Shown here piece by piece: positions 21,686 to 51,059 of a DNA stretch of 64,000 bases. Source of the DNA: an uncultured Oribacterium sp. (GTDB taxonomy: Bacteria; Bacillota; Clostridia; Lachnospirales; Lachnospiraceae). The stretch is taken from the NCBI GenBank assembly GCA_946413525.1, contig CAMKKZ010000004.1, positions 62,001 to 126,000 of the forward strand, given 5' to 3'. Below the pieces are notes generated by a model that worked only from the letters and a program-made list of their open reading frames with translations, ran no database searches and was not told where the DNA came from. Each line of letters starts with the position of its first letter. Position 1 is the stretch's first letter. A program made the translations under genes and the position numbers.

Positions 21686-24600
21686 ATGCACTCTGCTGAT
21701 TATTTTGACAATTTGATTCAAAGAATCCGTTTTCCCGGCGAGGATGGCGGTGGGAAGTCCATGGCTAATGTGCTTTATCTGTCGGGGGATATGGAGACCG
21801 GGATTCCGGAATCCTTGTCCCGGCGGGTTCGGAAGGTTTCCATCCACGCCGTGGGAAGGTATGACTTCATTTTGATTCCCTGCCTCACGAAACGGCTTTT
21901 GGAACGCTTTTCAGGGGAAATGGCGGAAATGTGCGAGATGCTTTTCAGGAAGAATCTCGTGGAAGGGGGCAGGCTTATCATTGGGATGGAGAACGGTTCA
22001 TCCATCATGAACCTCGCCGGAGCCGACAAGGATCCGGAGATTTATTATGCCTCTTTCCAGGACATTAACAAAATGAGGGTCAGGCTTTCCGGGGGAACGA
22101 TTGAGTGGAAAGACAGGCTTTGCTACCCACTTCCGGACTTGCAGTCCATGGAGCTGCTTTGCCCTGAGGGTGGGGATATATGGTTCCTGGCATCGGAATA
22201 TATGAGGAGGTCTTCCGCTCAGGGGGAATCCTTTATGGACAAGGCTTCGGACGGGGTATTGCGGGAGGCGTTTTTCTCCTCTGATGTCACGGAGGCCCTG
22301 TTTCGGGAGGGGAAAATGTCGGAGCATGCGCCGGCATACCTTTATGTGCTTGAAAGAGGGAAGGATACCGGGGGTGACAAGGGGCTTTCGGATGGAAATG
22401 CGGGCCAGTCCTCGGCAGATATCGGCTTCCTGCGTATGGAGCGGCTGGAAACGCAGCAAGCAATGGAAAATTCATCGGTGGTCAGCATTCGGCCGGATGA
22501 AATCAATGAAGAGAATTATATGAGCCTGCGCCGCCAGGTGGAGGAAAACGAGATTGTAATCCGAGGCCTTCTTAACGAAATCCACGAGGAAGACATTGTT
22601 CTGAAAAAGGAGCGGGAGGAGGAGCGGCTTACGCGGGTTCACGTAAGCAATCTGGAAAATGTCATGCGTATCCACGAGCGGGATATTGCCGATTTCCAGA
22701 AAAAACGTGAATATTTCAAAAAGAATCACAGTAAGCTCGCGGAATGGAATGATGACAGGGCAGCCGATTTCAAACGAATTTTGCCGGATCATTCCCGCAA
22801 GCGCAAACTTTTGCTTTATATTCGCCGTACTGTCCTGCATCCTTTCAAGATGATCCCCAGGTTCTTTTCCGAGAAGGAGCGGAACCTTATCCGGGGAGAT
22901 TTCCTCATTGGCAGTGAATACCTTGAAAAAGGGAAGCTTCATTTTGAAAAGGCTGAGGAGCCATTGGTCAGCATTATCGTGGCCGCGGCCAACGAGGTCA
23001 GATATACATATCGCCTTCTTTGCGCCATACTGGAGCATACGGATCAGGAGGAGACCCCGTATGAGCTTATCCTGGCAGATGATTCTTCTTCGGACGCCAC
23101 CAGAGAAATTGAGAAGTATGCGGATAATATCATTATCATGCGCAATACGGAACGTGGGGGCTTTTTCAGCAATGTGAACCAGGCGGCAGAGGCGGCTCGG
23201 GGGAAATATATTGCTGTGCTTCATCAGCATACCGCGATTCAGGATGAGTGGCTGACAGGCCTCCTCCGTCTTCCGGAGACACAGCCGGATGTCGGGATGG
23301 TGGGCCCGATGTTGTGCTGGCCGGATGATCGCGTATATTCGGCAGGGGGGATAGTATGGGCTGATGGCAGTTCGGAAATCTATGGCAGGAATTGCAATGC
23401 ATTGGAGCCGGAATATAATTACGTGAGGGATGTGGACTTCCTTTCCGCACCGGCTTTTCTTGTCAGAACCTCGTTATGGAAAAGAAGCGGGGGATTTGAC
23501 CTCGGTCTTCCCTACGAGGACCTTGAGCCTGCTGTCAAGTCGGTTTGTCTGGAATCAGGGCAGCCGGATCCTGTTTCGACAGGGGAAGAGTTCCCGGTTG
23601 AGACGGAAGACGCTGGAAAGCCGGGGTCTTCGGAAGAACCGGGAAGTGATGGAGTGCCGGGATTTTCGGAAGAGCCGGCAGACGTTGAAGGGTCGGGGCT
23701 TCTGGAAGAACAAGAAGCTGATAGTGGTCCGGAGCTTTCCGGAGGGCTGGACACCGAAGGACTGATGGAGCTTTCAGAAAAGCAAGGGACCGTTGAAGGG
23801 TCGGGGCTTTCGGAAGAGCCGGCAGATGATGGATTGTCAATTCATTCGGAAGAGTTGGCGCATGCTGGAAAGCCAGTGCTTTTGAAGAAGCCGGAGCTTC
23901 CGAAATCGACAGGAGATACAGAAGACACGGAAGCAGTAAAGAGACTGGAGAATTCGGAAGTGGCTGGGACATTGGAGGATGCGTCGCTTTCGGAGAGTTT
24001 GGAGTCTGCAGGGGAGGCCGCGGAAGATTTCACGGGAGCCGCCCAGGCTGAGGAGACGGAAGAATCCGCGGAGAGTGCCGAGGTAACAAGAGAAGAAGCC
24101 GCAGCGGAAGTCTTGGCTGCGGGAGAGGAAAAAGCCGCGGAGGGAGCTCAGGCTGCGGGAGAGGTTCAGACTGAGGGAGCGAAAGAAGCCGCAGAGGGGG
24201 CTCAGTCCGAAGAGGAAGAAAAAACCATAGGTGTAGTTGGGGACTCGGAAGCTGAGGAAGATGTAGAATATCCCGTCAATGTGGAAGACGCGGAAGACGT
24301 GGAAAAGGAAGAAAATCCGGAGAATTCGAAGAACATTCGGACTACTGCGGAAATGGCATTGGATATTCCGGAAGCATCATTGACGATACCGGAGGAGAAG
24401 CTGGACTTAACGGACGGGAATACGGAGGCAAGCTCCTCATCGGAAACGGCTGCAGAAACATTATCGCCTGATACAGAATCCCGTGTTCAGGATGAATTTG
24501 AGGGCAGGGCAGGGGAGAAATCGGCATTTTCCTCGGAGGAAAAAGCGGAGAATGCGGATGCCGGAGTGCCTGTGCATTCTCGGACGGAAGAAACAGCGGC

Positions 24601-27301
24601 CGGAAAGGATTCAGGTCAGGGGGACGGAAACCCGGAGGAGACGGAACTGTCGATTCTGCTTAGGGAAATGGTTGCTGCCGTCAAAAAGCGGGAAGAAGAA
24701 GGGGTGGATTTGGATTATTATGAACCATTCCCGATGACACCCGCGAGAAGGTCTTCTTTCTATGAAGAAGATGAGCAGGAAGAAAATCAGGCAGAAAAAC
24801 AGGAATCGGAAGCGGACATCCCAAGGCCGGTCTGGTCCTGGCCTGAAGAGGAGAATGCGGAAAAATCGGAAGGAAAGCAATCCGGCGAGTCGGTTGATGT
24901 GGCTGTAGAGAGCGCGGCTGCCGAAGCGGAAAATGAGCCGGAAGGAAAAGAGGCTGCCGAGGCGATAGAGGAGCCGGAGGAGAAGATGGCTTCCGAAGCG
25001 GAAGAGGAGCCGGAGGAGAAGATGGCTTCCGAAGCGGAAGGGGAGCCGGAAGAGATTCTGACTACCGAATCGGAAGGGAATTCGGGCGAATTTTTGACCG
25101 ATGAACCGGAAGGAGATTCGAAGGGGAAGGTGACTTCCGAAGTGGAAGGAAAGCCGGAGGAAGGTCTGATCGCCGAAGCGGAATTGGAGCCGACGGAAAG
25201 TCTGACCTCTGAATTAGAATTGGAGCCAACGGAAAGTCTGACTTCTGAATTGGAGTCGGAAGGAAGTCTGAATACTGAACTGGCAGGAAAGCCGGAGGAA
25301 AACCTGACTTCTGAATTGGAATTGGAGCCGGAGGATAGTCCGGACGGCGAATCAGAATTAGTGCTGAAAGAAAGCCCGGTTGCCGGATCAGAAGCGGAGC
25401 CCAACGGGAATCTGCTTGTTGAGACAACAGGGGCTTTGGAAGAGGAGGCGACGGAAGAAGTCCTGCCTGACGAGCTTGTGGAAGAGGCAAAGGACGCCGT
25501 TTTGCCAGAAGATGCGAAGGGAGATCCGCAGGAAAGGATTGCTGCAGAGGTGGCAAAGACTGGCGCGTCAGAGCTGGCAAGGACCGACGCGGCGGAGGCA
25601 ACTGCAGAGGTAGTAAAGGCCGATGCGGAAGAGGCAACTGCAGAGGTAGTAAAGGCCGACGCGGCGGAGGCATCTGCAGAGGTAGTAAAGGCCGACGCGG
25701 CGGAGGCAACTGCAGAGGTAGTAAAGGCCGACGTGGCGGAGGCATCTGCAGAGGTAGTAAAGGCCGACGCGGCAGAGGCAACAGCAGAGCTGGCAAAGAC
25801 CGACGCGGCAGGAGTCGAAGGGACAGAGTCAGCAAGAGCTGATGCGGCAGAGGAGAGAAAGGAAATCACATTTCCTGAGGATGAAGGGAAAAAATTCACA
25901 TGCCAGATGGCCGATTTCTGCTTTAAAATACGTTCTCTCGGCGCCAGGGTTTGTTATGAGCCAAAGTCAAAGGTGTATTTTGACGGTGCTTCGGATTTGG
26001 ATGGTACGGGGAAGGCATTTTCTGATAAATGGCAGGAATCTCTGGTCGGCCAATGCGTCCCAGGCAAGGAAAGGAATCCTTTCCGGGCCAGGGAAAGGGG
26101 GAAAACAGCCAGGTATATTCTGATGGTTGACCATGCCGTTCCCACCTGGGACAAGGACGCCGGTTCAAGGTTGGATTATCAGTACATCCGGCTCTTCCTG
26201 TCAAGGGGGTATAAGGTGAAGTTCCTTCCGGATAATTTTGTCCGGGACAATCCGTATACCTATGTCCTGGAGGAACAGGGGGTCGAGGTTCTTTATGGCA
26301 ATAATTACTGTGCCGGCATCTGGGAATGGATCGAGCGGAATAAGGAGGAGATTCAGATCGCGTACCTGAATCGTCCTCACGTTGCGGCAAGATACATTGA
26401 TTATCTCACGACACATACGGGAATCCGTTGCATTTTCTTCGGGCACGACGTTCATTCTCTCCGCATGATGCGGGAGTATGAAGTCACGGGAGATAAAAGC
26501 CTGCTTGATGACATTGCCTATTGGCATAATCTGGAATTTGGGATCATGCGGAAGGCTTATGCCAGCTATTATCCTTCCACTTTTGAAGAGGAATACATTC
26601 ATTCCCAGGATCCTGCTATCCCCGCGAAAGCAATCACTGCGTATGTGTATGACGCTGCAGTGGAGAGGAATCTGGAATATGAAGGGAGGCGGAACCTTCT
26701 GTTTGTCGGTGGTTTCGGACATCCGCCCAACAAGGACGCGCTGCTTTGGTTTGTAGGAGAGATCCTCCCCAGGGTACGCAGTGCGCTTCCGGACATAAAG
26801 CTCCTGGTGGCGGGGTCCAGACCCGATGAGGAGGTTCTGGCACTCAACAAAAGAGACGATGTCGAGATTCTCGGGTACGTCACGGATGAGCGCCTGCATG
26901 AGCTTTACCAATCCACCAGGCTTGTCGTGGTTCCCCTGCGTTATGGCGCGGGGGTCAAGGGAAAGGTGATCGACGCGCTGCATGAAGGCGCGGTCATTGT
27001 GACGACAGGTTGCGGCGCCGAGGGGATTCCGGAGGCAGAAGCGGTCATGCTGATTCAAAATGACGCGGATGGGTTTGCCCGGGAGATTATCAGCCTGTAT
27101 CCGGATATTGAATTCCTGAAAATGGTATCGGACAGGGCGATACAATTTATCGAGCATTATTATTCGCCTGAGGCTGCCTGGGAAAAAATCAGGCGGGATT
27201 TCGATGTACCGGCTCCGTCAGAGCGGGAAGAACAGGCTGCCGGGACAGGGGATAATGAGGCGGAAACGAATGTAAACATAAACATGAACATGAATTTGTA
27301 A
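21686..27301 (+). CDS. Giant bifunctional glycosyltransferase (GT2-GT4) split by a repeat insert
   Basis: About 1871 residues. In order: a degenerate methyltransferase-like region (nt 21770-22400, GGRLIIGMEN and SSDVTEALFREGK), a coiled coil (nt 22520-22740), a GT2 domain from nt 22960 (PLVSIIVAAANEVRYTYRLL, LADDSSSDATREIEKY, the nucleotide-sugar Asp region), and a C-terminal GT4 domain (nt 26110-27200, LLFVGGFGHPPNKDALLWF, VVPLRYGAGVKGKVIDAL with the Glu-x7-Glu-like EGAVIVTTGCGAEG). The GT2 fold is interrupted after LPYED (nt 23520) by about 790 acidic repetitive residues and resumes at ADFCFKIRSLGARVCYEPKS (nt 25908). It would build surface polysaccharide at the cytoplasmic face. Start uncertain: ATG 21686 is the first in-frame ATG but has a poor ribosome site; the frame extends to TTG 21620 inside a MITE-like element. 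Confidence 0.85.
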   Translation: MHSADYFDNLIQRIRFPGEDGGGKSMANVLYLSGDMETGIPESLSRRVRKVSIHAVGRYDFILIPCLTKRLLERFSGEMAEMCEMLFRKNLVEGGRLIIGMENGSSIMNLAGADKDPEIYYASFQDINKMRVRLSGGTIEWKDRLCYPLPDLQSMELLCPEGGDIWFLASEYMRRSSAQGESFMDKASDGVLREAFFSSDVTEALFREGKMSEHAPAYLYVLERGKDTGGDKGLSDGNAGQSSADIGFLRMERLETQQAMENSSVVSIRPDEINEENYMSLRRQVEENEIVIRGLLNEIHEEDIVLKKEREEERLTRVHVSNLENVMRIHERDIADFQKKREYFKKNHSKLAEWNDDRAADFKRILPDHSRKRKLLLYIRRTVLHPFKMIPRFFSEKERNLIRGDFLIGSEYLEKGKLHFEKAEEPLVSIIVAAANEVRYTYRLLCAILEHTDQEETPYELILADDSSSDATREIEKYADNIIIMRNTERGGFFSNVNQAAEAARGKYIAVLHQHTAIQDEWLTGLLRLPETQPDVGMVGPMLCWPDDRVYSAGGIVWADGSSEIYGRNCNALEPEYNYVRDVDFLSAPAFLVRTSLWKRSGGFDLGLPYEDLEPAVKSVCLESGQPDPVSTGEEFPVETEDAGKPGSSEEPGSDGVPGFSEEPADVEGSGLLEEQEADSGPELSGGLDTEGLMELSEKQGTVEGSGLSEEPADDGLSIHSEELAHAGKPVLLKKPELPKSTGDTEDTEAVKRLENSEVAGTLEDASLSESLESAGEAAEDFTGAAQAEETEESAESAEVTREEAAAEVLAAGEEKAAEGAQAAGEVQTEGAKEAAEGAQSEEEEKTIGVVGDSEAEEDVEYPVNVEDAEDVEKEENPENSKNIRTTAEMALDIPEASLTIPEEKLDLTDGNTEASSSSETAAETLSPDTESRVQDEFEGRAGEKSAFSSEEKAENADAGVPVHSRTEETAAGKDSGQGDGNPEETELSILLREMVAAVKKREEEGVDLDYYEPFPMTPARRSSFYEEDEQEENQAEKQESEADIPRPVWSWPEEENAEKSEGKQSGESVDVAVESAAAEAENEPEGKEAAEAIEEPEEKMASEAEEEPEEKMASEAEGEPEEILTTESEGNSGEFLTDEPEGDSKGKVTSEVEGKPEEGLIAEAELEPTESLTSELELEPTESLTSELESEGSLNTELAGKPEENLTSELELEPEDSPDGESELVLKESPVAGSEAEPNGNLLVETTGALEEEATEEVLPDELVEEAKDAVLPEDAKGDPQERIAAEVAKTGASELARTDAAEATAEVVKADAEEATAEVVKADAAEASAEVVKADAAEATAEVVKADVAEASAEVVKADAAEATAELAKTDAAGVEGTESARADAAEERKEITFPEDEGKKFTCQMADFCFKIRSLGARVCYEPKSKVYFDGASDLDGTGKAFSDKWQESLVGQCVPGKERNPFRARERGKTARYILMVDHAVPTWDKDAGSRLDYQYIRLFLSRGYKVKFLPDNFVRDNPYTYVLEEQGVEVLYGNNYCAGIWEWIERNKEEIQIAYLNRPHVAARYIDYLTTHTGIRCIFFGHDVHSLRMMREYEVTGDKSLLDDIAYWHNLEFGIMRKAYASYYPSTFEEEYIHSQDPAIPAKAITAYVYDAAVERNLEYEGRRNLLFVGGFGHPPNKDALLWFVGEILPRVRSALPDIKLLVAGSRPDEEVLALNKRDDVEILGYVTDERLHELYQSTRLVVVPLRYGAGVKGKVIDALHEGAVIVTTGCGAEGIPEAEAVMLIQNDADGFAREIISLYPDIEFLKMVSDRAIQFIEHYYSPEAAWEKIRRDFDVPAPSEREEQAAGTGDNEAETNVNINMNMNL
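23520..25890 (+). repeat. Coding minisatellite inside the GT2 domain, 12-residue periodicity
   Basis: Several blocks of 36-base units can be read. Examples: SEEPADVEGSGL-like units at nt 23630-23880; EAEEEPEEKMAS units near 24970-25060; SELELEPTESLT units near 25180-25260; and six near-perfect units of AAEATAEVVKAD at 25589-25804. All blocks keep the frame and are rich in Glu, Ala and Ser. The six-unit block alternates ACT/TCT codons, hinting at a 72-base higher-order unit. Confidence 0.85.
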
Positions 27302-27498
27302 ACGATTCGGCACCCTCAGGATTTCATAGAATTCCAAATGAAAAAATTTGATTTACATTTTGAATTCGGAATTCGGAATTTCGATTTTTGAATTTTGAAT
27401 TCGGAATTTCTTGAAATCCAGAGGGCGGAGGAAGCGAAGGGCGCCTCTGAACGATTACCAGAAGTCGTCAAGGGAGGCTGTGGACAGGGTACTGAATG
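27301..27498 (-). mobile_element. MITE-like element, copy 3 (inverted, internally expanded)
   Basis: Starting at the glycosyltransferase stop codon, the ends GATTCGGCACCCT and AGGGTACTGAAT and the internal GGATTTCATAGAATTCC, CAGAGGGCGGAGG and GCGCCTCTGAACG match the reverse complement of copy 1. The centre is expanded by short GAATTCGGAATT repeats. It forms the leader of the next gene. Confidence 0.65.
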
Positions 27499-27529
27499 GC
27501 TGTGTTTATTTCAGGGAGAGCGGGACGCT

Positions 27530-28129
27530 ATGGCAAATGTGATTTCAATCGATAATCATGGAAATGGTCGGGAGGACGCGCTTAAGGAGGTGGAGCAATT
27601 TGCGGCGGAAAAGCATCTTTCCAGAAAAGAGGCTTTGAAGGCGAGGCTGCTTACCGAAGAAGTGCTTGGAATGGTTGAAGGTATTTCAGGCCAATTCACT
27701 TCGTCCTTTTGGATTACCGGGGACGAGCAATCTTATTGTATCCACCTGGATACGGAAACAAAGATGAATGTGTGGAAACGGGATGAGTTCCTGGATGTGT
27801 CATCCAGCGGTAAAAACGCTTCTGCCAAGGGAATACTCGGAAAGATCCGGGATATTTTTGAGATAGGGCTTTTGGGAGGTGAGTATGCGGGGGATATGAG
27901 TCAGCCAGGTCTTGCCCCGTATTATGCCATGGGAAGCGTGCCGGATGATACTGACGCGTTTTGGTCCCTGAATAATTATCGGAAAAATGTTGGAGACAGG
28001 CGTGCGGAGGATGCTGGGGATGCCTGGGATGAGTTGGAAAAATCCGTCATTGCCCTTGTCGCAGAGGATGTACAGGTGGGCATACGGGGGAACAAGGTAT
28101 ATCTCGCTGCTTCCCGGAAATGTGAATAG
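27530..28129 (+). CDS. Unknown protein in glycan cluster, weak GHKL-ATPase resemblance
   Basis: A 199-residue soluble acidic protein. ATG 27530 follows GGGAGAG; the frame also extends upstream into the MITE-like element. The segment SRKEALKARLLTEEVLGMV is reminiscent of the N-box helix of histidine-kinase-like ATPases, and the C-terminal WDELEKSVIALVAEDVQVG recurs in proteins I associate with this order, but no G-box is clear. No membrane segment or signal peptide. It overlaps the start of gmhB by 8 bases. Function unknown; a regulatory role is only a guess. Confidence 0.55.
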   Translation: MANVISIDNHGNGREDALKEVEQFAAEKHLSRKEALKARLLTEEVLGMVEGISGQFTSSFWITGDEQSYCIHLDTETKMNVWKRDEFLDVSSSGKNASAKGILGKIRDIFEIGLLGGEYAGDMSQPGLAPYYAMGSVPDDTDAFWSLNNYRKNVGDRRAEDAGDAWDELEKSVIALVAEDVQVGIRGNKVYLAASRKCE

Positions 28130-29024
28130 ACTGGTTTTCCTTGACAGGGACGGCACGCTGAATGAGGAGGTTGGCTATCTTCATGAGGAATCGAAGCTCT
28201 GTATCCTGCCAGGGGTACCGGAGGCCTTGCGAAAATTATGTGCCGCAGGCTTCCAGCTTGTGGTCGTCACGAACCAGGCCGGAATCGGGCGGGGCTATTA
28301 CCCTGAGGAAGACTGCAGGAAGGTGAATGCCGCGCTGGCGCGGGAGCTGGGACGGTCGGGGGCGGAGCTGTCCGCGTTTTATTACTGTCCGCATCATCCG
28401 GAGAATGGCATTGGTATGTATAAAAAAGAATGCCTTTGCAGGAAGCCGGGTATCGGCCTTTTCCTTCAGGCGGAAGCGGACTTTCTCGGATGGCCGGGGG
28501 CTTTCACCGCGGGGGCGTCGGATTTGGAAAATCATTTCGTGGCGAAGATGATGCCTGCGGGGGCTTTCGTTGCGAACGTATCGGATTGGGAAAATCATTC
28601 CATGGCGGAGCCAACGCCTGCGGGGGCTTTCACTGTGGGCGCGTCGGATTGGGAAAATCATTCCATGGCGGAGCCAGCGCCTGCGGTGGTTTTTACCACA
28701 GGCGCGTCGGATTGGGAAAAGACAGAGGGATATCAGAGTTTGATGAGGCTCAGCGCCGACGAGGCCGCTTGTCTTCAGGAGGAAAACCGCAGGGATCAAA
28801 GGTATAAAGCATTTCTGCGGCATTGTTATATGATTGGCGACAAGCTGAACGATACGAGGGCAGGTCATGCTTTTGGCATAAGGAGCATTCTGGTGGGCAG
28901 CGGATATGGAAGGGAAGAGCGGGAAAAGGCGCGACCGGGGGATTTTGACGAATTTTTTGAGACGCTGGGGGAGGCGGCAGAATGGATAGTGAGAGAAGAG
29001 CGGAACAGCAGCTTGACAGATTGA
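28122..29024 (+). CDS. gmhB: GmhB-like heptose-bisphosphate phosphatase with repeat insert
   Basis: A 300-residue HAD-IIIA phosphatase (usual length about 175-190). Motif I FLDRDGTLNEEVGYL, TNQAGIGRGYY, the zinc-loop residues CPHH...CLCRKPG and motif IV MIGDKLNDTRAG are all intact. It removes the 7-phosphate of D-glycero-D-manno-heptose 1,7-bisphosphate. Between GLFLQAEADF and YMIGDK lie about 100 extra residues made of 21-residue repeats. The GTG start at 28122 overlaps the previous stop and has only a weak GGAAA upstream. gmhA follows, overlapping by 43 bases. Confidence 0.85.
   Translation: MNRLVFLDRDGTLNEEVGYLHEESKLCILPGVPEALRKLCAAGFQLVVVTNQAGIGRGYYPEEDCRKVNAALARELGRSGAELSAFYYCPHHPENGIGMYKKECLCRKPGIGLFLQAEADFLGWPGAFTAGASDLENHFVAKMMPAGAFVANVSDWENHSMAEPTPAGAFTVGASDWENHSMAEPAPAVVFTTGASDWEKTEGYQSLMRLSADEAACLQEENRRDQRYKAFLRHCYMIGDKLNDTRAGHAFGIRSILVGSGYGREEREKARPGDFDEFFETLGEAAEWIVREERNSSLTD
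28497..28720 (+). repeat. 63-bp tandem repeats inside gmhB
   Basis: Three full 63-base units start at 28497, 28560 and 28623, and a partial fourth at 28686. Each begins with GGGGCTTTC-like sequence and contains TCGGATTGGGAAAATCATTC. Translation gives 21-residue units with the core SDWENHSMAEP. Units 2 and 3 are nearly identical, indicating recent duplication. Confidence 0.85.
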
Positions 29025-30447: not shown

Positions 30448-30505
30448 AAATTGTTTTGAAGATTTGTCTTTTGGGACTTCTTAATAAAATCGAGCGGGTA
30501 TTAAG

Positions 30506-30674
30506 GGCAAGCCTTTCATGCTTCATTTGCGTGGCTTTTGCGTTACTAAAGAGACTTCGATGCCTGTGGCATCAAGTCAAGTATGAAAGGCAAGCCTTTC
30601 ATACTTCATTTGTGCCGCTGGCGCAACACAAATGGGACTCAACGCCTGCGGCATTAAGTCATAGTATGAAGGGA
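30506..30674 (+). repeat. 84-bp intergenic repeat family, two tandem units
   Basis: Two units, about 30506-30590 and 30591-30674, each running from GCAAGCCTTTCATRCTTCAT through a GGCATYAAGTC segment to GTATGAAAGG. Palindromes CTTTCATAC / GTATGAAAG bracket each unit. No gene is seen in the gap 30448-30721 that it fills. Confidence 0.75.
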
Positions 30675-36332: not shown

Positions 36333-36336
36333 TAAA

Positions 36337-41492: not shown

Positions 41493-43949
41493 ATGAAGAA
41501 TATGAAAAAAGGAAAGAAAAAGAATTGGGGCAGGGTTGCGCTCCTGACCGCCCTCCTCATGTTCGGCACTTCCATGCTGACTGCTTTTGCGGAGGATGCG
41601 GCGGGGGAAGATCCCGGGGAGGATTCTGCTGTCCAGACTGTCATTGAGCAGTTGGAAAGCATTGACTCCCTGCAGTAGATGCAGGATAAGAGAGGCGAGT
41701 TTGCGCTTACATTGGAAGAAGCCAACGCGATGATAAACAATGGTGACAGCACTGCCGCTATTGAAAAGACTATAGCCTATGAATCCTACGTACGGGAAAT
41801 GCAAAATCAGAGGTTGGCAGCCAGGACCGCCTATGAAGATCTGACGGAAGAGCAGAAGAATGGCGTAGATCCGGAGCTTGTGGCGAAGCTGTATGATGAG
41901 TTGGAAACAACATACGATTTCACAACAGAATTCACGATCGTAAAGAGCACAAATGAATATTCATATCAGATTATTGCTGAAAAAAATAAGCCTAATTCTT
42001 ATGAACTGAGTCAGTGTTTTACCGGGGAAATGCCTTTCATTGCGATTCTGGCAGATTCAAGCGGTGACGCGACAAAATGGCATTTGGATAAGCCATATGA
42101 TCCGGAAGGCGGCAACAGCTATGACCTTGCGTATTGCTGTGATGTGGAATGGAGTCCAAAGGATTCACAGCATTACAAGCGGATGAACCTGGAGGACAGT
42201 GATTACTATGGAAAGACAGCCGCTAAGAAAATCAGAGCAATCGTTCAGTCTTCCTATCCTTTTGTCAGCCTGGAAGAAATGAAAGCAAATCTCAAAAATG
42301 ACCTGGATGAGGATTTCGTGGATTCCCTGACGAGAGGGGACATCATCGCAAGCGTACAGGCCGCTATATGGGCTTATGCCAATAATGGTTTGGAAGAAGG
42401 GAAAGGAAATATCATTGACTTCAGAGGAACTTATGATATGAAGAACAGTACCTCTGTAAGGCCTATGCACGATTTTCGGAACGAGCTTTGGGATTATTGG
42501 AGCGTAAAACCAAAAAGCTACAGAAGAGGGACTTTGCCGACGCTGGTCTATGAAAATGCCTCCGCTTCCAAGCGGGTCAACACGCTTACACATTATCTTT
42601 GCGGTCTTCCCGGGGTTGAGGCACCGGAGGATCAGTTCGTAATATCGGACGCAAAGATCACTAGGGCCAGGCTGCTCACGACCTCAAAAGAAAACGAATA
42701 TGAGATTGGGATGTATGTCCTTCTGAATGGAGGGGCTGAAACAGATGATCTGACGATCAAGGTCACATGCACACAGAAAGACGGAACCATTACATCCCGG
42801 GGATCTTTCGTTGCCAAAGGAATGAAAACCCAGGTGAATTACCGCGCGAAATATGGGGATACAGTTCGTGTCGAGGTTGAAGGCACGCAGGAACTGCCTA
42901 GGGGCGTATATTTTTATTGGCCCGAGGGGGATAGTCGTGATAGCTCTCAGGCGCTGGTCGGCGTTGCTCAGGGAAAGACCAGGGTGCGCGCGGAAGAAAG
43001 CTTTTTGTTTGATGAGGACATCACGAAGGGGATTCGGATTCATAAAAGCGCAAAGACAGGCGACAAAAATACGGATCTGCCGTTAGAAGGGCTTTATTTC
43101 GATATTTATCAGATCCCGGAGGGTGAGTCTGCTTCTACCGGATCGGAGCCCACGGCGGAGGAAATCGAAAAATTTGCCGTAGAAGGAAATCTTGCAGGTA
43201 CCGTAACGACCGATAATACCGGATACGCAAAGCTTCAACTGGATAACAATGGAAAATATCTCGTGGTGGAACGAGCGGATGAAACGAAAATAAAGGCTCC
43301 GGCGGATCCGTTTTATTTCATGATTCCTTCGCCTGAAATTGACGAGGAAGGACATCCTCTGGTTGATGATGACGGGATTACGATCATGAATGACATTGTA
43401 TCCGTCTATCCGAAAAACGAACCTGTCCCGCCGCCAGATACACCGCCTGTGATTCCTCCCCCACCGAAGGATGTAACCGGAGGTTTCTCAATCATAAAGC
43501 TGGATTCCGTTACGGAAGAAGCCCTGGAGGGCGCGGAGTTTGAGCTTTACCGTCTTGCTACGGAAGCGGATGATGAGGGAACAAGGAGGACGGTGACAAT
43601 CGATGAAGCTTCCTATTCAGTGGTTTCAATGGGCACAACTCTCACTACGGACGCGGATGGGAAGGCATCGGTGACGGATCTTCTGTGCGGCACCTATTTC
43701 CTGGAGGAGACAAAGGCTCCGGAGGGCTATGAACTGCTTGAAGAGTTTGTCAAGGTTGAAGCTGTTTCTGACGCGTTGAAGGCTGATCCGGTTCCGTTTG
43801 AAATCTATAATAACGAAGGATCCTTCCTTCCTTCGACAGGTGGCATGGGTACCGGGATTTTCAGAGTTTTGGGATGCATGCTGCTACTTCTGGCAGGACT
43901 GGCTGTATTGGAGAAACGATTTTCCCTGCGGGCTATTCGTCAGGACTGA
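41493..43949 (+). pseudogene. Thioester-domain LPXTG surface adhesin with in-frame TAG
   Basis: The frame starts with a basic N-terminus and hydrophobic signal peptide (ALLTALLMFGTSMLTAFA), then meets TAG at 41676-41678 after IEQLESIDSLQ. The same frame continues from the next codon (ATG) for 756 residues. The continuation carries a thioester domain (Cys in AYCCD at about 42135, Gln in VQAAIW at 42357), a proline-rich linker, a SpaA-like domain (GFSIIKLDSVTEEALEGAEF) and a sorting signal LPSTGG (43827-43844) with a membrane helix and basic tail. It would bind host or plant surfaces covalently if exported. The stop separates the export signal from the adhesin, so the gene is broken unless TAG is read through. 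Confidence 0.85.
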
Positions 43950-44043
43950 TCATCATGATTATCAGGATGATTTAGAGGAAATTGCTATTCAAAGATAAAA
44001 ATGCTGAGTACGTTCAGCTAAAAGGAATCGTGGAATAACAAGA

Positions 44044-44085
44044 CTCCCGGTTATCGGTATAAAGCCGATGGCCGGGAGATTTACG
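44044..44085 (+). terminator. Terminator after the adhesin gene
   Basis: CTCCCGGTTATCGG pairs with CCGATGGCCGGGAG (two G-U pairs) around TATAAAG at 44044-44078, followed by ATTTACGTATTT. Confidence 0.7.
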
Positions 44086-44178
44086 TATTTGGCTGAAATG
44101 ATTGGTTGTAATCATCGGGTTTGTTAATATTATTGAAAGCATAGAAAATATATTGTATTATAGTAATATAAAGTAGTA

Positions 44179-44317
44179 AGCCGTTTTGCCCCGCGCGCGG
44201 TCCACTATGTCAGAACTCTGAGCGGCCAAATCCCACTCTGATAGATGAGCCGTTTTGCCTCGCAGGCGGTACGCTATGTCAGAATTCAGAGTGGCCCAGG
44301 TCTGCTCTGATAGATGA
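44179..44317 (+). repeat. Two 69-bp direct repeats upstream of the Rrf2 gene
   Basis: Copies at 44179-44247 and 44248-44317, each starting AGCCGTTTTGCC and containing CTATGTCAGAA and CTCTGATAGATGAG. Each copy also has a CTCTGA/TCAGAG inverted pair. The second ends at the Rrf2 ribosome site, so they are candidate operators for autoregulation, or simple duplications. Confidence 0.7.
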
Positions 44318-44328
44318 GGTGAAGTACA

Positions 44329-44766
44329 ATGAAGATTTCCACAAAGGGCCGTTACGCGCTTCGGATGCTGATTGATCTTGCTGAGCATCGGGGCAAAGGT
44401 TTTATTTCCTTAAAGGAAATTTCCGAACGTCAAAAGATTTCAAAAAAATATCTGGAGCAGATCATTCCTATTTTTAACAAAACAGACGTCCTGCGGGCAA
44501 ATCGCGGTTCACAGGGCGGATACATGCTTGCAAAGGATCCGGATCAATATACCGTTGGAGAGATACTGCGCATTACAGAGGGGTCGCTTTCCCCGGTGGA
44601 TTGCGTGGATCAGGGTTCCGCTCTTTGTGAACGCAGCGTGGACTGCCCCACCCTTCCGATCTGGACAGGGCTTGCCCGGCTTATTAATGAATATCTTGAT
44701 GGCATTACCCTGCAGGATATACTGGATCAGCGGCATGATCAATATGTGAATGACTATGTTATATAG
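44329..44766 (+). CDS. Rrf2 family transcriptional regulator (IscR/CymR-like)
   Basis: A 145-residue regulator. MKISTKGRYALRMLIDLAEH and the helix-turn-helix ISLKEISERQKISKKYLEQI are typical of Rrf2 proteins, and ANRGSQGGYMLAKDP is the wing. Three cysteines (DCVDQGSALCERSVDC) lie at about 92, 100 and 106, as in Fe-S-binding IscR-type members; CymR proteins do not use such a cluster. It converges with cysK, so control of cysteine or Fe-S metabolism is plausible. Confidence 0.92.
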   Translation: MKISTKGRYALRMLIDLAEHRGKGFISLKEISERQKISKKYLEQIIPIFNKTDVLRANRGSQGGYMLAKDPDQYTVGEILRITEGSLSPVDCVDQGSALCERSVDCPTLPIWTGLARLINEYLDGITLQDILDQRHDQYVNDYVI

Positions 44767-44771
44767 TCAGT

Positions 44772-44824
44772 TAAAATGCGGCAATACCTGGGCGCATTGC
44801 GCAGGCATTGCCGCATTTTATTCG
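44772..44824. terminator. Bidirectional terminator between rrf2-type gene and cysK
   Basis: Arms TAAAATGCGGCAATACCTG (44772-44790) and CAGGCATTGCCGCATTTTA (44802-44820) pair with one mismatch around an 11-base loop, with T-rich sequence on one side and A-rich on the other. Confidence 0.85.
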
Positions 44825-45012
44825 TGAGGCCTCTCTTGTTGTTTGAGAAATTTCAATTATTCACGAGTCTTCGATTAATCTGCCAGGCTTTAAATATTTG
44901 TGGACTTAATTTGTGAGGCCTCTGTTGTTATTTGATGAATTTATGATTATTCACGAGGCTTCGATTATCTGTGAGGCTTCGATTATCTGTGAGGCTTCAA
45001 TTATTTGCGGAT
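44822..45012. repeat. Direct and short tandem repeats downstream of cysK
   Basis: Two related units of about 60 bases, starting GTGAGGCCTCT at 44824 and 44914, each ending in TTATTCACGAG and CTTCGATTA. After the second, a unit like TGAGGCTTCGATTATCTG is repeated in tandem about three times (44957-45010). No spacers of the CRISPR type and no gene. Confidence 0.7.
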
Positions 45013-45030
45013 TCAAATCGCGGGATGGAT

Positions 45031-45960
45031 TCATTCGGCAAACATGGGGGTGGAAAGGTAGCGTTCACCGGTGTCGGGGAGAAGAGCCACGATGAATTTC
45101 CCCTTGTTTTCAGGGCGTTTCGCAATTTCGGATGCCGCGAAGACTGCCGCCCCGGAGGATATTCCAACAAGGATTCCTTCTTTTCTGGCGAGGGTTTTGC
45201 CTGTCGCGAAGGCATCTTCGTTTGTGACGGTGATTATTTCATCGTAGATTCCGGTATTCAGAGTATCGGGAACAAAGCCAGCCCCGATCCCCTGGATTTT
45301 GTGCGGCCCCGGGGTGCCTTTGCTGAGTACGGGGGAGCCTGCCGGCTCTACGGCAATTATTTTGACATTCGGATTTTTGCTTTTGAGGTATTCCCCTATG
45401 CCAGTGATTGTTCCGCCGGTACCTACGCCGGCCACAAAGATATCGACCTTTCCGTCGGTGTCCTCCCATATCTCGGGTCCGGTCGTAGCGCGATGGGCGG
45501 CCGGGTTGGCCATGTTCGTAAACTGGCTTGGAATGAAGCTGTTCGGCGTATTCGCCGCAAGTTCATTAGCTTTTTCAATCGCCCCCTTCATCCCTTTCGA
45601 ACCGTCGGTTAATACTACTTCCGCGCCATAGGCCTTGAGGAGGTTCCGGCGCTCAATGCTCATGGTCTCGGGCATTGTCAGGATGACGCGGTATCCTCTT
45701 GACGCGGCAACAGCGGATAATCCTATTCCGGTATTTCCGCTTGTCGGTTCAATGATGACGGAATCTTTTTTCAGGACTCCTCTTGCCTCCGCGTCATCTA
45801 TCATTGCTTTTGCTATTCTGTCCTTCACGCTTCCGGCCGGGTTGAAATATTCCAGCTTCCCATAAATTTCGGCATCCAGCCCATTTTGTTTTGTGTAGTT
45901 CCCGAGCTTTAAAAGCGGGGTTTTTCCAATGAGATCCGTAATACTGTTGTAAGTTTTCAT
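45031..45960 (-). CDS. cysK: Cysteine synthase A
   Basis: A 309-residue PLP enzyme making L-cysteine from O-acetylserine and sulfide. The PLP lysine is in [11 protein letters not shown] near residue 41, the substrate loop is [12 protein letters not shown], and [14 protein letters not shown] binds the phosphate. The C-terminal [11 protein letters not shown] and [12 protein letters not shown] are as in CysK. The ATG follows GAGGAGG on the minus strand. It converges on the Rrf2 regulator gene. Confidence 0.96.
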
Positions 45961-46427
45961 GATAATAATCCTCCTCTTTCTCTTTTGTTATGCTTTTTCG
46001 CATCTGTTAAGCTAATATGCATTTGTTATGCTTATATGCATGAGAAGCTTTTAATAGCTGCCTGGCCTGGCTGAATGAATGCTCATCGGATTTCTTCGCG
46101 GTATGGTTTATGCTGTGAAGGAATTTTCTTTGCAAACCAAGGTTTTTCATGGGCGAAAAATGATTCGATATAAAAGCCCTAATATCCTATCTGATAATGG
46201 GGTAATGTACCATCTTTTTTTAATTTTGTCAAGCCTGCTGTTTAACGGAAGGGGAGAGTAGGCTGTTGTTTGTTGAGGTGAGAAATTTGTTGTCCGTCTG
46301 AGCTGAAAAACGAATTGAAAACGTTGCTGTGCATTTCAAGCTGAAAAAGCTTGAACATATCTTATTGCTGCATTAAACTTATCCCATGGAGTTTGTTATG
46401 GGCGCTCTTATAGGGGATGGGTTTGAA
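45961..46427. other. Divergent promoter region of cysK and the NUDIX gene
   Basis: No supported gene in 467 bases. Short repeats AAGCATAACAAA-like (about 45990-46045, read on the minus strand) precede cysK. ATATCCTATCTGATAATGG at about 46182 loosely resembles a dyad regulator site. A 60-codon frame at 46079-46261 lacks a ribosome site and was not called. Confidence 0.45.
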
Positions 46428-46988
46428 ATGGAGATTGTAGATGTTTGTAATGAGGATGGTCTGCCAACCGGGGAAACCGTAAGCAGGGATATCGCCCACA
46501 GGGACGGGATTCTTCACAGGACGGCGCATGTGTGGGTGGTAAGAAAAGGGATCGATGGTTACGATATTCTGCTTCAGAAACGAAGCATGGAGAAGGAATC
46601 ATTTCCCGGATTATACGACACTTCCTCCGCAGGTCATATTATGGCGGGAGACGAGCCGGCCCTTTCCGCGGCCAGGGAGCTGAAGGAGGAGCTGGGAATA
46701 ACGGCGAGTTTGGATGAGCTTTCTTTTGCGGGAACGTTCCGCATCAGATATGTGGAGGAATTTCATGGGAAGCCGTTTCATGATAATGAGGTGACATATG
46801 TTTATGTTTACAGCAAGCCGGTGGACGTAAAATCCCTGCTCCTCCAGAAGGGGGAGGTTGATGAGGCTGCGTGGTTTGATCTGGAGGAGGTATACAGGGA
46901 AATACAGGTCAGCAGGGAAAGGTTCTGTGTCCCGATGGAAGGCCTGCGGGTGCTGAGAAGTTATCTTGGACTTGAAAGCAGCCGCTGA
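46428..46988 (+). CDS. NUDIX hydrolase, IDI-like
   Basis: A 186-residue NUDIX protein. The opening MEIVDVCNEDGLPTGETVSR and the following HRDGILHRTAHVWVV are typical of the isopentenyl-isomerase-like NUDIX group; the NUDIX box GHIMAGDEPALSAARELKEE-LGI is complete with its metal-binding Glu residues. ATG 46428 is chosen because AGGGGATGGG lies at the right distance and the family starts here; in-frame ATGs at 46386 and 46398 would add 14 or 10 residues. Substrate unknown, likely a nucleoside-diphosphate compound. Confidence 0.9.
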   Translation: MEIVDVCNEDGLPTGETVSRDIAHRDGILHRTAHVWVVRKGIDGYDILLQKRSMEKESFPGLYDTSSAGHIMAGDEPALSAARELKEELGITASLDELSFAGTFRIRYVEEFHGKPFHDNEVTYVYVYSKPVDVKSLLLQKGEVDEAAWFDLEEVYREIQVSRERFCVPMEGLRVLRSYLGLESSR

Positions 46989-47210
46989 TGGTCAGCCGCG
47001 GGAGCTGTCCGATCAGAGGAACTTCAATCAGGGAAAACCGATAGCAGGAAATCCAATCACAGCCGATCCGATCATATGAATCCGATCACGGGTGATTCGG
47101 GTACAGGGGTTTCTATTGTAGGAAATTAGAGTACAGGAGATTCGGTCAGAGGGGATCCGATTCGAGCGCGGGAATTCGGAGTACGGGAGGTTCAAACGCA
47201 GGGGATCCGG
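46989..47210. repeat. Degenerate short-repeat spacer
   Basis: The 222 bases between two convergent genes consist of about ten loosely related units of 18-22 bases around GATCCGATCACAGG or GAGTACAGGAGATTCGG. No gene or terminator stands out. Confidence 0.5.
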
Positions 47211-48251
47211 TCACAGGAGGCGGATCAGCCTGTCCACATCCTCGCTTTGTGTTGCCCAGCTTGTTGCAATACGCAGAATGACGTGGGAATCATCGGTCTT
47301 CTCCCAAAAATCCATTTCCACCTCATTGGACAGCCTAGCATATTGTTCTTTGTCAAGGCAGACGAAAATCTGGTTTGTAGGGGATGGGAATGCGAGGGAA
47401 TAGCCTTTTTCCCGGAGGGCTTTTCGGATTCTGTCAGCGGCCTCGATGGCTGTCTTTCCTATCTTGTAATACAAATCATCGGTGAACAAGGTGTCAAATT
47501 GTATGCCGGCTATCCTTCCTTTGGCCAGAAGGGCGCCGTGCTGCTTGATGATGGTAAAAAGATGTGGGATGAAGTCATGCTTCGGGACAACGATGGCTTC
47601 ACCGAACAAAGCTCCACATTTGGTGCCGCCGATATAGAAGGCATCGCAAAGGGAGGCTATGTCGGGAAGGCTGACATCATTTTCAGGGCAGCCGAAGGCA
47701 TAGCAAAGTCTGGCCCCGTCCAAATACAACGGGATATGGTTCGAGCGGCATACTTCGCTGATTTCGCGAAGCTCTTTCAGGGAATATAAAGTTCCGCATT
47801 CCGTGGGGTGTGAGATATAAACCATTCCCGGCATGACCATATGTTCACGGTTGCTGTCCTGCCAGTATTTTTCAAGGCATTCCCGGATTATTTTCGCTGA
47901 GAGTTTGCCTTCATGCTGAGGCAGAGCCAGCACCTTGTGACCGCCGTATTCAATGGCACCCGCTTCATGAACGCTGATATGTCCGCTCTCGGCGGCAATC
48001 ACGCCCTGGTAAGGGCGGAGTATGGAATCAATCATGACGGCATTTGTCTGTGTGCCGCCCGCAAGGAAAAAGATGTCTGCCAAAGGCGTATGGCAGGCTT
48101 CACGGATTCGGTTCCTTGCTGATTCGGAAAAGTTATCCACGCCGTATCCGGGAGTTTTTTCCATGTTTGTTTCCGTCAGCCGACGGAGGATCAGGGGGTG
48201 TGCCCCTTCCATATAATCTGTGGCAAAAGACAGTTTTTGGCCTTGGCTCAT
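47211..48251 (-). CDS. Low-specificity threonine aldolase-like PLP enzyme
   Basis: A 346-residue PLP-dependent enzyme of the beta-eliminating lyase fold. LYLDGARLCYAFGC holds the PLP-contacting Asp-Gly-Ala-Arg; YIGGTKCGALFGEA holds the PLP Lys. SHPTECGTLYSLKELREI is also as in the family. It would split threonine or allo-threonine to glycine and acetaldehyde. The ATG follows AGGAGGAG on the minus strand. It is a single gene, convergent with the NUDIX gene. Confidence 0.92.
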   Translation of the reverse strand: MSQGQKLSFATDYMEGAHPLILRRLTETNMEKTPGYGVDNFSESARNRIREACHTPLADIFFLAGGTQTNAVMIDSILRPYQGVIAAESGHISVHEAGAIEYGGHKVLALPQHEGKLSAKIIRECLEKYWQDSNREHMVMPGMVYISHPTECGTLYSLKELREISEVCRSNHIPLYLDGARLCYAFGCPENDVSLPDIASLCDAFYIGGTKCGALFGEAIVVPKHDFIPHLFTIIKQHGALLAKGRIAGIQFDTLFTDDLYYKIGKTAIEAADRIRKALREKGYSLAFPSPTNQIFVCLDKEQYARLSNEVEMDFWEKTDDSHVILRIATSWATQSEDVDRLIRLL

Positions 48252-48431
48252 TTGCGTTCTCCTCCTTGTTTTATGATATGCCTATCAGTTTTGATCGTTT
48301 TATTATGGGTATGCGCGTCATTCCTGTCAAGCCACGATTTCCAACTAACTTTTTGAGGCATAGTTGATGCCGTATGATAATGATTTTTCGTCCATTTGTA
48401 TTTTCATTTGAAAGGCCGGAGGTGACTGGGC

Positions 48432-51059
48432 ATGGATGGGTTGGTGCCACAGGCCCGGGGGGCGTCTGCAGGCGGAGGCTTTCAGGAACGCGCTGGCAGG
48501 GCAGGGATGGAACATTTGCGATGCGTTGTGGAACGCATTACCTATCAAAATACGGAGAATGGATTCTCTGTCCTTAAATGCCGCGCAAAGGGTTACAGGG
48601 AGCTGGTCACTGTGGTAGGGTCTATGCCGGATGTCCATGTCGGCAGCGTCCTTTACCTAGGAGGAGCCTGGAAGATTGACGGGAAATACGGGCGCCAGTT
48701 CTCCATGGAAATCTTTGAGGAAGTCCTTCCGGCCACCGCGTACGGGATTGAAAAATATCTGGGAAGCGGGCTGGTCAAGGGCGTGGGTCCGAAATTTGCG
48801 GGAAGAATCGTCAAGAAATTCGGCGCGGATACGTTGAACATTATCGAGGAGGATCCGGACCGCCTGCTGGAGGTTGAAGGGATAGGAAAGGTTCGCGTGG
48901 AAAGGATCCGGAAAAGCTGGCAGGAGCAGAAAGAGATCAAGAATATCATGCTCTTCCTTCAGGGGCATGATGTTTCCACGAGCCATGCCACAAAAATCTT
49001 CAAAACTTATGGGAATGAAAGCATCAAGGTGGTGCAGGAGAACCCTTACCGCCTGGCTGACGATATCTGGGGCATTGGCTTTCGGACTGCTGATACCATT
49101 GCGGAAAAGATGGGTTTTGGGCATGAGAAATATGTCCGGCTGAGGAGCGGCATCCTCTACACTTTGAACAGGCTGGCGGAAGACGGGCACTGCTACGCCA
49201 CCCGCGAAATGCTTCTGAAAACCGGGGCTGAGCTGCTTTCAGTGGAGGATTATGTTCTTTCTATGACATTGGATGAGATGATCCGCGTGAATGATGTGAT
49301 TACCGAGCTCATCCCCTCGTCGGATAATGAGGGATTTGAAACTGTGGCTTCGCTTGTGCCAGAAACATCAGCAACACTCTCGCTCTCAGCCGGAAAGGAA
49401 GCCGCGCTTATACCCGCGCCTGCGGATGGGAAAGAAGCTGCGCTGGCACCTGCATCTACGGATGGGAAAGCGGCTGCGCTGGCACCTGCATCTACGGATG
49501 GGAAAGAAGCTGCGCTGGCACCTGCATCTATGGATGGGAAAGCGGCTGCAATAGCGCCTGCGGATGTGGATGTGGCCACATTTACACCTATAGCCGGAAG
49601 AGCAGATATATTAGCACGCGAAAAAGCCATTTATTTGCCACCGTTTTTCTTTTCGGAGGCCGGCACGGCCAGACGGCTTTTCGCGATCTGCCGTAGTCCG
49701 GGAGGGGTTTATGTGGACATGGAGGGGCTTTTGGAAAGGATAAGCCTGCGAACCGGCATGCATTACGATGAAGTCCAATTGGAAGCCATAAGGACCGCCG
49801 TTCGGAGCAAGGCACTGGTACTGACTGGGGGTCCCGGCACGGGGAAGACTACGACTACGTTGGGAATCATTACGGCGTTCCGCGAGGCCGGAGCGAAAAT
49901 CCTGCTGGCTGCCCCTACGGGACGCGCGGCAAAACGGCTTTCCGAGGCGACCGGCATGGAAGCGAAAACCATCCACCGCCTTCTGGAAGCGAAGCCGCCG
50001 GAGGGGTATCAGAAAAATGACGAGAACCCTTTGGAAGGGGATGTGCTGATCGTTGACGAGTGCTCTATGATCGACATTATGCTCATGTACAATCTTCTGA
50101 AGGCGGTTCCGAATGCCATGACCTTGATTTTGGTGGGGGACACGGATCAGCTTCCAAGCGTCGGCCCCGGGAATGTTCTCCGGGACATCATCGCGTCCGG
50201 CATCATTCCGGTAATCCGGCTGACGAGGATCTTCCGTCAGGCTCAGGAGAGCCGCATTATCATGAACGCCCATCGTATCAATAGCGGGAGGATGCCGGAC
50301 ATCTCTAATGGGGCAAAAAGTGACTTTTTCTTTATGGACATGGAGCAGCAAGCGAAGAGGAAGGGGCTGGATTCCGGGGATGGGGCGGTGCTGGCAGAAG
50401 AGGCGGCGAAGACCATTACCGAACTGGTGTCTGTCAAGCTTCCGAGATATTACAAGGTGCCCGTTTCGGAGGTTCAGGTGCTTTCGCCCATGCAGCGCGG
50501 GGTGGTCGGAGCCGCGAATTTAAACCAGGTTCTGCAGCAGGTATTGAACCCGGGCGGCGAGGGGCTCCGACGGGGCGGAATCCTTTTCAAGGCCGGGGAC
50601 AAGGTAATGCAGATTCGTAACAATTACGACAAGGAGGTTTTTAACGGGGATATCGGGGTGGTCGGCTCTGTGGATACGGAAGAAAGGGAGCTGACCGTGA
50701 ACTTTGACGGAAAGATGGTTTCTTACGATATTTCGGAATTGGACGAGCTGACACTGGCCTATGCCACGACGATTCACAAATCCCAGGGGTCGGAATACCC
50801 TGTCGTCGTGATCCCTGTTCTGATGAGCCATTATGTCATGCTGCAGCGCAATCTTGTTTACACGGGAATTACCCGGGCGAAAAAAGTCCTGGTTTTGGTG
50901 GGGACAAAGAAGGCTCTTTCCTGTGCTATCGGGAATGTCTCTGCCGGAAAGCGGAATACGATGCTGAAGGAAAGGCTTGTAAGGTCGACCATCGGGAATG
51001 TTTCTGCCGGAAAGCGGAATACGGTGCTGAAGGAAGGGGCTGGAAAGCCGACATTATGA
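48432..51059 (+). CDS. recD2: RecD2-type SF1B DNA helicase with internal and terminal repeats
   Basis: An 875-residue 5'-3' helicase. The N-terminal OB and helix-hairpin-helix regions (YGIEKYLGSGLVKGVGPKFA, VEGIGKVRVERI) are followed by the ATPase core: Walker A LTGGPGTGKTTT near nt 49820, Walker B DECSMIDIMLM, VGDTDQLPSVGPGNVL, and the C-terminal TIHKSQGSEYPVVVIP and YTGITRAKK. Two oddities: about 65 Ala-rich residues of 12-residue repeats before the ATPase core (nt 49392-49571), and a 63-base tandem duplication at the C-terminus (50928-51053). ATG 48432 has a strong GGAGGTG; ATG 48507 matches the usual family start, with weaker GCAGGG. Confidence 0.93.
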   Translation: MDGLVPQARGASAGGGFQERAGRAGMEHLRCVVERITYQNTENGFSVLKCRAKGYRELVTVVGSMPDVHVGSVLYLGGAWKIDGKYGRQFSMEIFEEVLPATAYGIEKYLGSGLVKGVGPKFAGRIVKKFGADTLNIIEEDPDRLLEVEGIGKVRVERIRKSWQEQKEIKNIMLFLQGHDVSTSHATKIFKTYGNESIKVVQENPYRLADDIWGIGFRTADTIAEKMGFGHEKYVRLRSGILYTLNRLAEDGHCYATREMLLKTGAELLSVEDYVLSMTLDEMIRVNDVITELIPSSDNEGFETVASLVPETSATLSLSAGKEAALIPAPADGKEAALAPASTDGKAAALAPASTDGKEAALAPASMDGKAAAIAPADVDVATFTPIAGRADILAREKAIYLPPFFFSEAGTARRLFAICRSPGGVYVDMEGLLERISLRTGMHYDEVQLEAIRTAVRSKALVLTGGPGTGKTTTTLGIITAFREAGAKILLAAPTGRAAKRLSEATGMEAKTIHRLLEAKPPEGYQKNDENPLEGDVLIVDECSMIDIMLMYNLLKAVPNAMTLILVGDTDQLPSVGPGNVLRDIIASGIIPVIRLTRIFRQAQESRIIMNAHRINSGRMPDISNGAKSDFFFMDMEQQAKRKGLDSGDGAVLAEEAAKTITELVSVKLPRYYKVPVSEVQVLSPMQRGVVGAANLNQVLQQVLNPGGEGLRRGGILFKAGDKVMQIRNNYDKEVFNGDIGVVGSVDTEERELTVNFDGKMVSYDISELDELTLAYATTIHKSQGSEYPVVVIPVLMSHYVMLQRNLVYTGITRAKKVLVLVGTKKALSCAIGNVSAGKRNTMLKERLVRSTIGNVSAGKRNTVLKEGAGKPTL
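49392..49571 (+). repeat. Five 36-bp tandem repeats inside recD2
   Basis: Units start at 49392, 49428, 49464, 49500 and 49536; the consensus begins GGGAAAGAAGCTGCGCTGGC and encodes GKEAALAPASTD. Units alternate GKEAAL and GKAAAL, suggesting duplication of a 72-base pair. Confidence 0.9.
50928..51053 (+). repeat. 63-bp duplication at the 3' end of recD2
   Basis: Two units (50928-50990, 50991-51053) starting ATCGGGAATGT and encoding IGNVSAGKRNTMLKE-like sequence. RecD2 proteins normally end shortly after one such segment. Confidence 0.85.

Follow-up and report, generated by a model that had tools for sequence, protein, structure and literature searches.

According to our analysis, the long in-frame repeat inserts found in three conserved enzymes of an uncultured Oribacterium sp. 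are most probably coding minisatellites, lying mostly in tolerant regions and each built from its own local sequence, a reading to which we assign a probability of roughly four in five. The window, i.e., the whole stretch of 64,000 nucleotides that was analyzed, carries such inserts in a GT2-GT4 bifunctional glycosyltransferase, a GmhB-like phosphatase, and a RecD2 helicase (Table 1). The phenomenon is a known one, which extends across the sampled genome and is somewhat intense here, and a machine dedicated to keeping the reading frame is not needed.

In the mechanism that we propose, stretches of local DNA, as a rule some tens of base pairs in length, would be duplicated in tandem, in genes and intergenic regions alike, with slippage or unequal exchange as the probable molecular step. 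Inside genes, only whole-codon duplications would survive, selection acting as the filter, and they would do so mostly where extra length is presumably tolerated, namely, in loops, linkers, and termini. Repeated rounds followed by point mutation would give rise to long inserts, and the duplication of two units at once would generate a 72-bp alternation, which fits the arrangement of the RecD2 units. The insert sequences would differ from gene to gene because each would have grown from its own local sequence.

Repeat arrays in three enzymes of the window

The GT2-GT4 open reading frame (ORF) matches PF00535 at residues 451 to 558 and PF00534 at residues 1684 to 1840, and its match to PF13641 (residues 450 to 636, profile positions 3 to 189 of 230) stops where the insert starts, right behind the YED of the GT2 motif YED[T/S]DLAF. 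Open frames of its relatives measure 1226 to 1253 aa versus 1893 aa in the window, and the number of residues between the border columns of the insert is 0 in all 28 aligned ORF rows, which represent 15 same-genus genomes and a paralogue in the own genome (G000:C6). The protein is present in 15 of the 16 same-genus relatives; G009, which is 73% complete, gave a weak GT2 hit only. As a protein, the insert found no other match across its whole own genome. The in-frame 36-bp arrays that the earlier note had described in this enzyme are real, since TRF detects them at four sites; the autocorrelation across the insert as a whole has maxima at 36, 72, and 108, and the part from 24180 to 24915 has no 36-bp period. 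Annotators should be aware that repeat growth, and not a domain, can underlie a glycosyltransferase insert of about 795 codons.

Table 1. Open reading frames, inserts, and repeat arrays of the three enzymes (window positions)
Feature	Position	Strand	Details
GT2-GT4 bifunctional glycosyltransferase ORF	21620..27301	+	1893 aa; PF00535, PF13641, PF00534
GT in-frame insert, about 795 codons	23522..25906	+	residues about 635-1429; alignment-read borders, approximate
36-bp array, 2.0 copies (GT)	24092-24164	+	TRF score 95
36-bp array, 4.5 copies (GT)	24916-25076	+	TRF score 194
36-bp array, 2-2.5 copies (GT)	25152-25251	+	TRF scores 112 and 128
36-bp array, 6.5 copies (GT)	25579-25814	+	TRF score 370; 89% matches
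GmhB-like HAD phosphatase ORF	27987..29024	+	Pfam Hydrolase_like PF13242
63-bp array, 3.6 copies (GmhB), loop before CYMIGDK	28495..28720	+	TRF score 228
RecD2 helicase ORF	48432..51059	+	875 aa; Pfam HHH_RecD2, OB_YrrC, AAA_19, SH3_13, UvrD_C_2
RecD2 linker insert, HHH region to AAA domain	49323..49610	+	residues about 298-393; borders approximate
36/72-bp array (RecD2 linker)	49423..49561	+	TRF 219 (period 36), 243 (period 72)
63-bp tandem duplication, RecD2 C-terminus	50928-50990 / 50991-51053	+	54/63 identical

The best solved-structure match of the GmhB-like ORF is the D,D-heptose 1,7-bisphosphate phosphatase 3l8e (E 5.2e-28), and we take its true start to lie near 28110, the point where similarity begins. 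It was matched in 6 of the 16 same-genus relatives, the two matches in G015 being longer proteins with a partial match only. The loop before CYMIGDK varies in length among the aligned relatives and is longest in the window copy; its repeated part, a genuine in-frame 63-bp array according to TRF, has no clear counterpart in these relatives.

The window RecD2 matches 3e1s (E 3.5e-75), and the titles of its best matches (the best 80 listed) name uncultured Lachnospiraceae, Bacillota, and other Clostridia, several of them sampled from the gut of ruminants. Its linker is short, in most cases, or unrelated in the 24 other rows of the RecD2 alignment (the best 25 listed), and the RecD2 of L005 has a long linker at that place with no visible repeat. 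Here too, the linker array and the C-terminal pair of 63-bp units proved real and in frame. Units 1 and 3 of the linker array are identical over 36 bp and neighboring units share 94%, so the 72-bp alternation claimed for both GT and RecD2 is clear in RecD2 (lag-2 identity of 1.00, from one comparison, versus 0.94) but weak in the GT array at 25579-25814 (0.917 versus 0.894). The description of the repeats as Ala/Glu-rich likewise holds for the GT insert but not for GmhB, nor for the RecD2 linker, which is Ala-rich with Lys and Pro.

The C-terminal pair, which is absent from the TRF list at a score of 40, has 54 of 63 positions identical versus at most 33 when the gene was codon-shuffled 300 times. 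Its first copy corresponds in the alignment to the tail conserved among relatives, e.g., AVRNVTVSKRNTMLKERL. The repeat is plainly a duplicate of this native tail, and it offers the clearest view of the mechanism, in which local sequence is doubled on the spot. We also observed that the window RecD2 (50928-51059) stops shortly after the duplicated tail and that a number of relatives run on into a conserved extension with NDGKQTPMRGAPxGHPxF or similar at its end.

In all three alignments, the repeats of the inserts are missing at the same sites in relatives. The GmhB loop and the RecD2 linker are also variable in length among relatives, in line with tolerant regions; the GT insert, in contrast, lies inside the GT2 motif region, which is not an obvious linker and speaks against our explanation. 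Compatible with the minisatellite reading is a further one, in which the enzymes with inserts would be redundant, and relaxed constraint would leave these copies free to drift. Besides the insert-free second GT2-GT4, which has a 1245-aa frame, the own genome carries a second RecD2 (G000:C2:183781-186000, 759-aa frame), and, judging from its position directly behind YED, the GT insert may have inactivated the GT2 domain. However, the GT frame is open across 1893 codons, GmhB is without a second match in its own genome, and the window RecD2 keeps a long list of invariant columns in common with 13 relatives; redundancy is retained here as a tentative possibility.

Base or codon composition does not explain the arrays, because codon-shuffled genes of the own sample (386 kb, one shuffle) gave no array with a TRF score of at least 90 and 5 of at least 50; an order-2 Markov copy of 464 kb (one copy) gave 0 and 1, respectively. 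The units in the window stand head to tail within ORFs and are longer than 10 bp, as is characteristic of coding minisatellites. A phase-variation (contingency) locus was considered as well and rejected: periods of 36, 63, and 72 bp are all multiples of three, and changes in unit number would leave the reading frame unswitched.

Reading frame of in-gene and intergenic arrays

The survey covered 564 kb of the 4.02-Mb, 70-contig assembly, comprising the window, 16 contig-start stretches, and 9 other stretches, with genes called by our own hexamer-scored ORF finder and not by a standard program. Arrays with a TRF score of at least 90 were deemed strong, periods below 9 bp were left out, and arrays that were neither in a gene nor less than 20% coding were excluded from both counts (4 of those scoring at least 90 in the first 464 kb). 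According to this survey, the repeat phenomenon is genome-wide within the sampled 564 kb, as the earlier note had supposed.

The period was divisible by three in 50 of 50 strong in-gene arrays, whose units range from 12 to 351 bp and two of which (L035 and L294) belong to dispersed families and possibly lie in spurious ORFs. Among strong intergenic arrays, the corresponding figure was 14 of 38, a share that matches chance expectation. Without arrays resembling another, the counts became 38/38 in genes versus 8/23 in intergenic regions (Fisher 7e-9). Whole-codon units in genes and unconstrained ones outside are the pattern of coding minisatellites. Since the intergenic arrays stand at chance while every in-gene array is in frame, selection is the simplest explanation for the intact frame; duplication itself looks frame-blind, with selection filtering the survivors inside genes. 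The idea of a shared process that itself keeps the frame is not supported by the same counts. Some of the intergenic arrays may represent what used to be genes, disrupted by frame-shifting repeats. A single genome thus provides a natural control, in which one kind of duplication is on view both under the frame filter and free of it.

Distribution of the 36-bp and 63-bp periods

A period of 36 bp is the commonest one in genes, accounting for 12 of the 50 arrays and occurring in 9 genes, with periods of 27, 30, 33, 39, 42, and 45 bp found in 1, 5, 2, 2, 2, and 1 genes, respectively; the resulting excess (Poisson P 4e-4) is post hoc, the test having been prompted by the window itself. Outside the window, 36 bp occurs in 7 genes versus 0 to 5 for the six neighboring periods (P 0.0045). 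These counts, together with the autocorrelation peaks of the GT insert, would fit a dedicated expansion process that advances by a fixed step of 36 bp (or 63 bp) and keeps the reading frame. We deem such a process very improbable, since multiples of three are not preferred among intergenic arrays, of which only 1 of 38 has a period of 36 bp, and since a fresh 100 kb fetched afterwards held 0 arrays of 36 bp among 6 in genes and 1 among 5 in intergenic regions. Moreover, 36 bp was found in 2 of the 16 in-gene arrays pooled from relatives, versus 3 at 39 bp, and among gene-period entries at 30 to 39 bp the share at 36 bp (9 of 18) gives P 0.02. A 63-bp period occurs in 2 of the 50 strong in-gene arrays, the RecD2 tail pair standing outside this count, so that a common 63-bp process was rejected and the recurrence of this period in GmhB and RecD2 is put down to coincidence.

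Of the proposal that unrelated genes share a 36-bp period, what stands is that this period is the commonest in genes, but it did not recur in genes of the hold-out sequence. The size range of 32 to 40 bp is not special to genes, because 8 of the 23 unclustered intergenic arrays fall there. Possibly, 36 bp is a whole-codon value in this general size range, with a small excess left unexplained; its gene count may exceed what a smooth size distribution predicts, which would speak against our explanation, the preference being weak and post hoc.

Array load in comparison with same-genus genomes

Strong in-gene arrays number 18.4 per 100 kb of coding sequence in the window, which was picked for its repeats, 11.4 in the contig-start stretches, and 6.3 in the interior ones. 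Of the 20 own stretches read first, 16 lie at contig starts, which are array-denser; the rate of that first whole sample, 11.4, overstates the load, and our headline comparison is that of the interior stretches. In relatives, the rates were 0.9 (G005), 0.6 (G006), 1.8 (G001), 1.8 (G013), 1.2 (G016), 1.2 (G015), and 4.9 (G008), which pooled over the seven same-genus samples gives 16 arrays in 1.2 Mb of coding sequence, i.e., 1.33 per 100 kb. The own interior rate is 4.8 times the pooled one (P 4e-4), in an imperfect match, the samples being mostly interior for G005, G006, G016, G015, and G008 but comprising numerous short contigs in full for G001 and G013 (in G013, 7 contigs below 2000 bases, 10,053 bases in all, were dropped before counting). 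It is indistinguishable from the rate in G008, which is based on 4 arrays (P 0.78). The individual inserts are ordinary, and it is their number in this genome that is high.

The lineage might be a tandem-duplication mutator, in which a change in replication or repair would make duplication more frequent throughout the genome, as the 4.8-fold in-gene density and the likewise high intergenic density (35.6 arrays per 100 kb in interior stretches) would lead one to expect. Yet weaker selection against extra length would yield the same counts, some of the intergenic arrays are dispersed families, and G008 cannot be told apart from the genome studied. MutS, MutL, and SbcD, the repair genes checked, are present with open frames, and their loss was rejected as a cause. 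On balance, we consider a mutator unlikely. Quite unlikely, in our opinion, is a genome-wide burst of tandem duplication combined with a real 12-residue preference, which would now be lengthening loops in housekeeping enzymes, GmhB and RecD2 among them, and would perhaps be tied to the spread of the palindromic repeats private to this species. If the load is ongoing, this species would be a place to watch enzymes gaining long repetitive inserts.

Position in proteins and selection on the repeat units

Strong arrays occur in 34 genes, 6 in the window and 28 outside, of which 19 were scanned with Pfam and the array residues set against the best printed stretch per Pfam family. In 11 of the 19 proteins every strong array lies outside the domain stretches, for instance, on the N-terminal side of TerD, M13 peptidase, and GH18 domains, on the C-terminal side of a CheB-CheR-kinase protein, or between CheC and FliN domains. 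The position of the window inserts, inside or between enzyme domains, is therefore not the rule. Against our explanation, arrays overlap a domain stretch in 4 of the 19. In a SF1 helicase (L046:9894-13373), array residues 796-822 lie inside AAA_12 (750-972), at a site where the stretch is shorter in a G013 relative (29% identity); in L049:1714-5856 and L039:5568-8756 the overlapped domains are themselves repeats, and in L049:7791-8813 a short Yae1_N match coincides with the array. The remaining proteins are ambiguous (L041 and L047) or have no Pfam match (two).

Between neighboring units, the pooled, transition-corrected omega-like ratio is 0.36 (43 arrays; bootstrap 0.27-0.47). The pooled units are under purifying selection, which counts against our explanation, so that some repeat peptides are kept and not all are neutral filler. 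Individual arrays vary: the ratio is 1.05 in the GT array at 25579-25814 and 1.31 in that of GmhB (12 and 11 single-change codons), 0.36 in the GT array at 24916 (11 single-change codons), 0 in the one at 25181 on 2 changes, and 0.19 in the RecD2 linker on 3 changes. On tiny counts, divergence looks near-neutral in GmhB and in the largest array of the GT, in favor of our explanation.

Elsewhere in the window, a 497-aa ORF without Pfam match (62086-63579) contains two separate, mutually related 54-bp arrays, whose units diverge mostly by synonymous changes (omega-like ratios of 0.16 and 0.07).

Independent origin of the inserts and dispersed repeat families

When 120 own arrays with TRF scores of at least 60 were compared by blastn (E <= 1e-4), 11 of the 12 strong in-gene 36-bp arrays had no similar array and 1 resembled a neighbor in its own gene only. 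Together with the GT insert, which is unmatched in the genome, this bears out the view that the repeat sequences differ from gene to gene and are not one mobile sequence. These comparisons support inserts that would have arisen independently of one another.

A mobile element inserting in frame into genes, like the Rickettsia palindromic elements (RPEs), would account for inserts in unrelated conserved enzymes that are missing from relatives, and the genome does hold two dispersed palindromic families without a match in relatives. However, no sequence common to the inserts was detectable by blastn or by the GT insert search of the genome, and the arrays of these families are intergenic or partly coding, except for one predicted-ORF array each (L035:15678-17072 and L294:9743-10990). 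We therefore reject such an element, to which we give hardly any credence.

The first family is an 83-bp palindromic repeat, dispersed and often in tandem pairs (window 30498-30670, 8953-9019, 55579-55661, and 63682-63770), whose unit folds into hairpins. It has at least 79 matches in the own genome (40 of 278 candidates scored), many of them representing two strands or parts of one place, and none in the 16 other genomes of the genus. The second, of about 69 bp with inverted repeats (window 44179-44318), gave 22 hits in 464 kb of the own sample and none in those of the seven sampled relatives; around it, 14 of the arrays surveyed in the 564 kb form a single cluster. Other mutually similar arrays include six of 12 or 24 bp coding EEG[RK] repeats (among them L043:625-1776, L045:10348-10770, and L049:7791-8813), which may resemble the tails of Rpn/PD-(D/E)XK transposase-like proteins. 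Related 228-bp arrays are found in two large proteins (L039:6807-7894 and L045:1-414), the former matching MBG_3 and LRR_5.

Comparison with known systems

According to passages of PMC10969869, RPEs insert in frame into unrelated genes, a feature that the inserts described here share. RPEs, however, form families whose members are related to one another and measure about 150 bp, whereas the window inserts are mutually unrelated and tandemly repeated, and homologous copies in different genes, as expected of RPEs or in-frame MITEs, were not found among the 36-bp arrays by blastn.

The earlier note knew of no named system for this kind of expansion. Minisatellites in coding regions, their origin by slippage and recombination, and selection against frame-breaking repeats are nevertheless described in parts of PMC3899988, and a passage of PMC3324548 calls minisatellites underrepresented in prokaryotes. 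Our literature search, a small part of which named the family, found no published case in Lachnospiraceae, which is no proof of absence.

With respect to frame selection, the arrays agree with what has been described, in that in-gene periods are whole-codon only and those of intergenic arrays about one third so. The principle is stated in the relevant passages of PMC3899988 for tri- and hexanucleotide repeats, whereas the units here measure 12 to 351 bp; the same source remarks that frame-shifting repeats can benefit prokaryotes, from which the pattern observed here differs. With coding minisatellites, or VNTRs, the arrays have in common tandem units above 10 bp within ORFs, whole-codon lengths, low-complexity peptides, and absence from relatives. 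Such repeats are typical of cell-surface proteins in the portions of PMC3899988 and PMC3324548 that deal with them, while in the genome studied here some of them lie inside enzymes.
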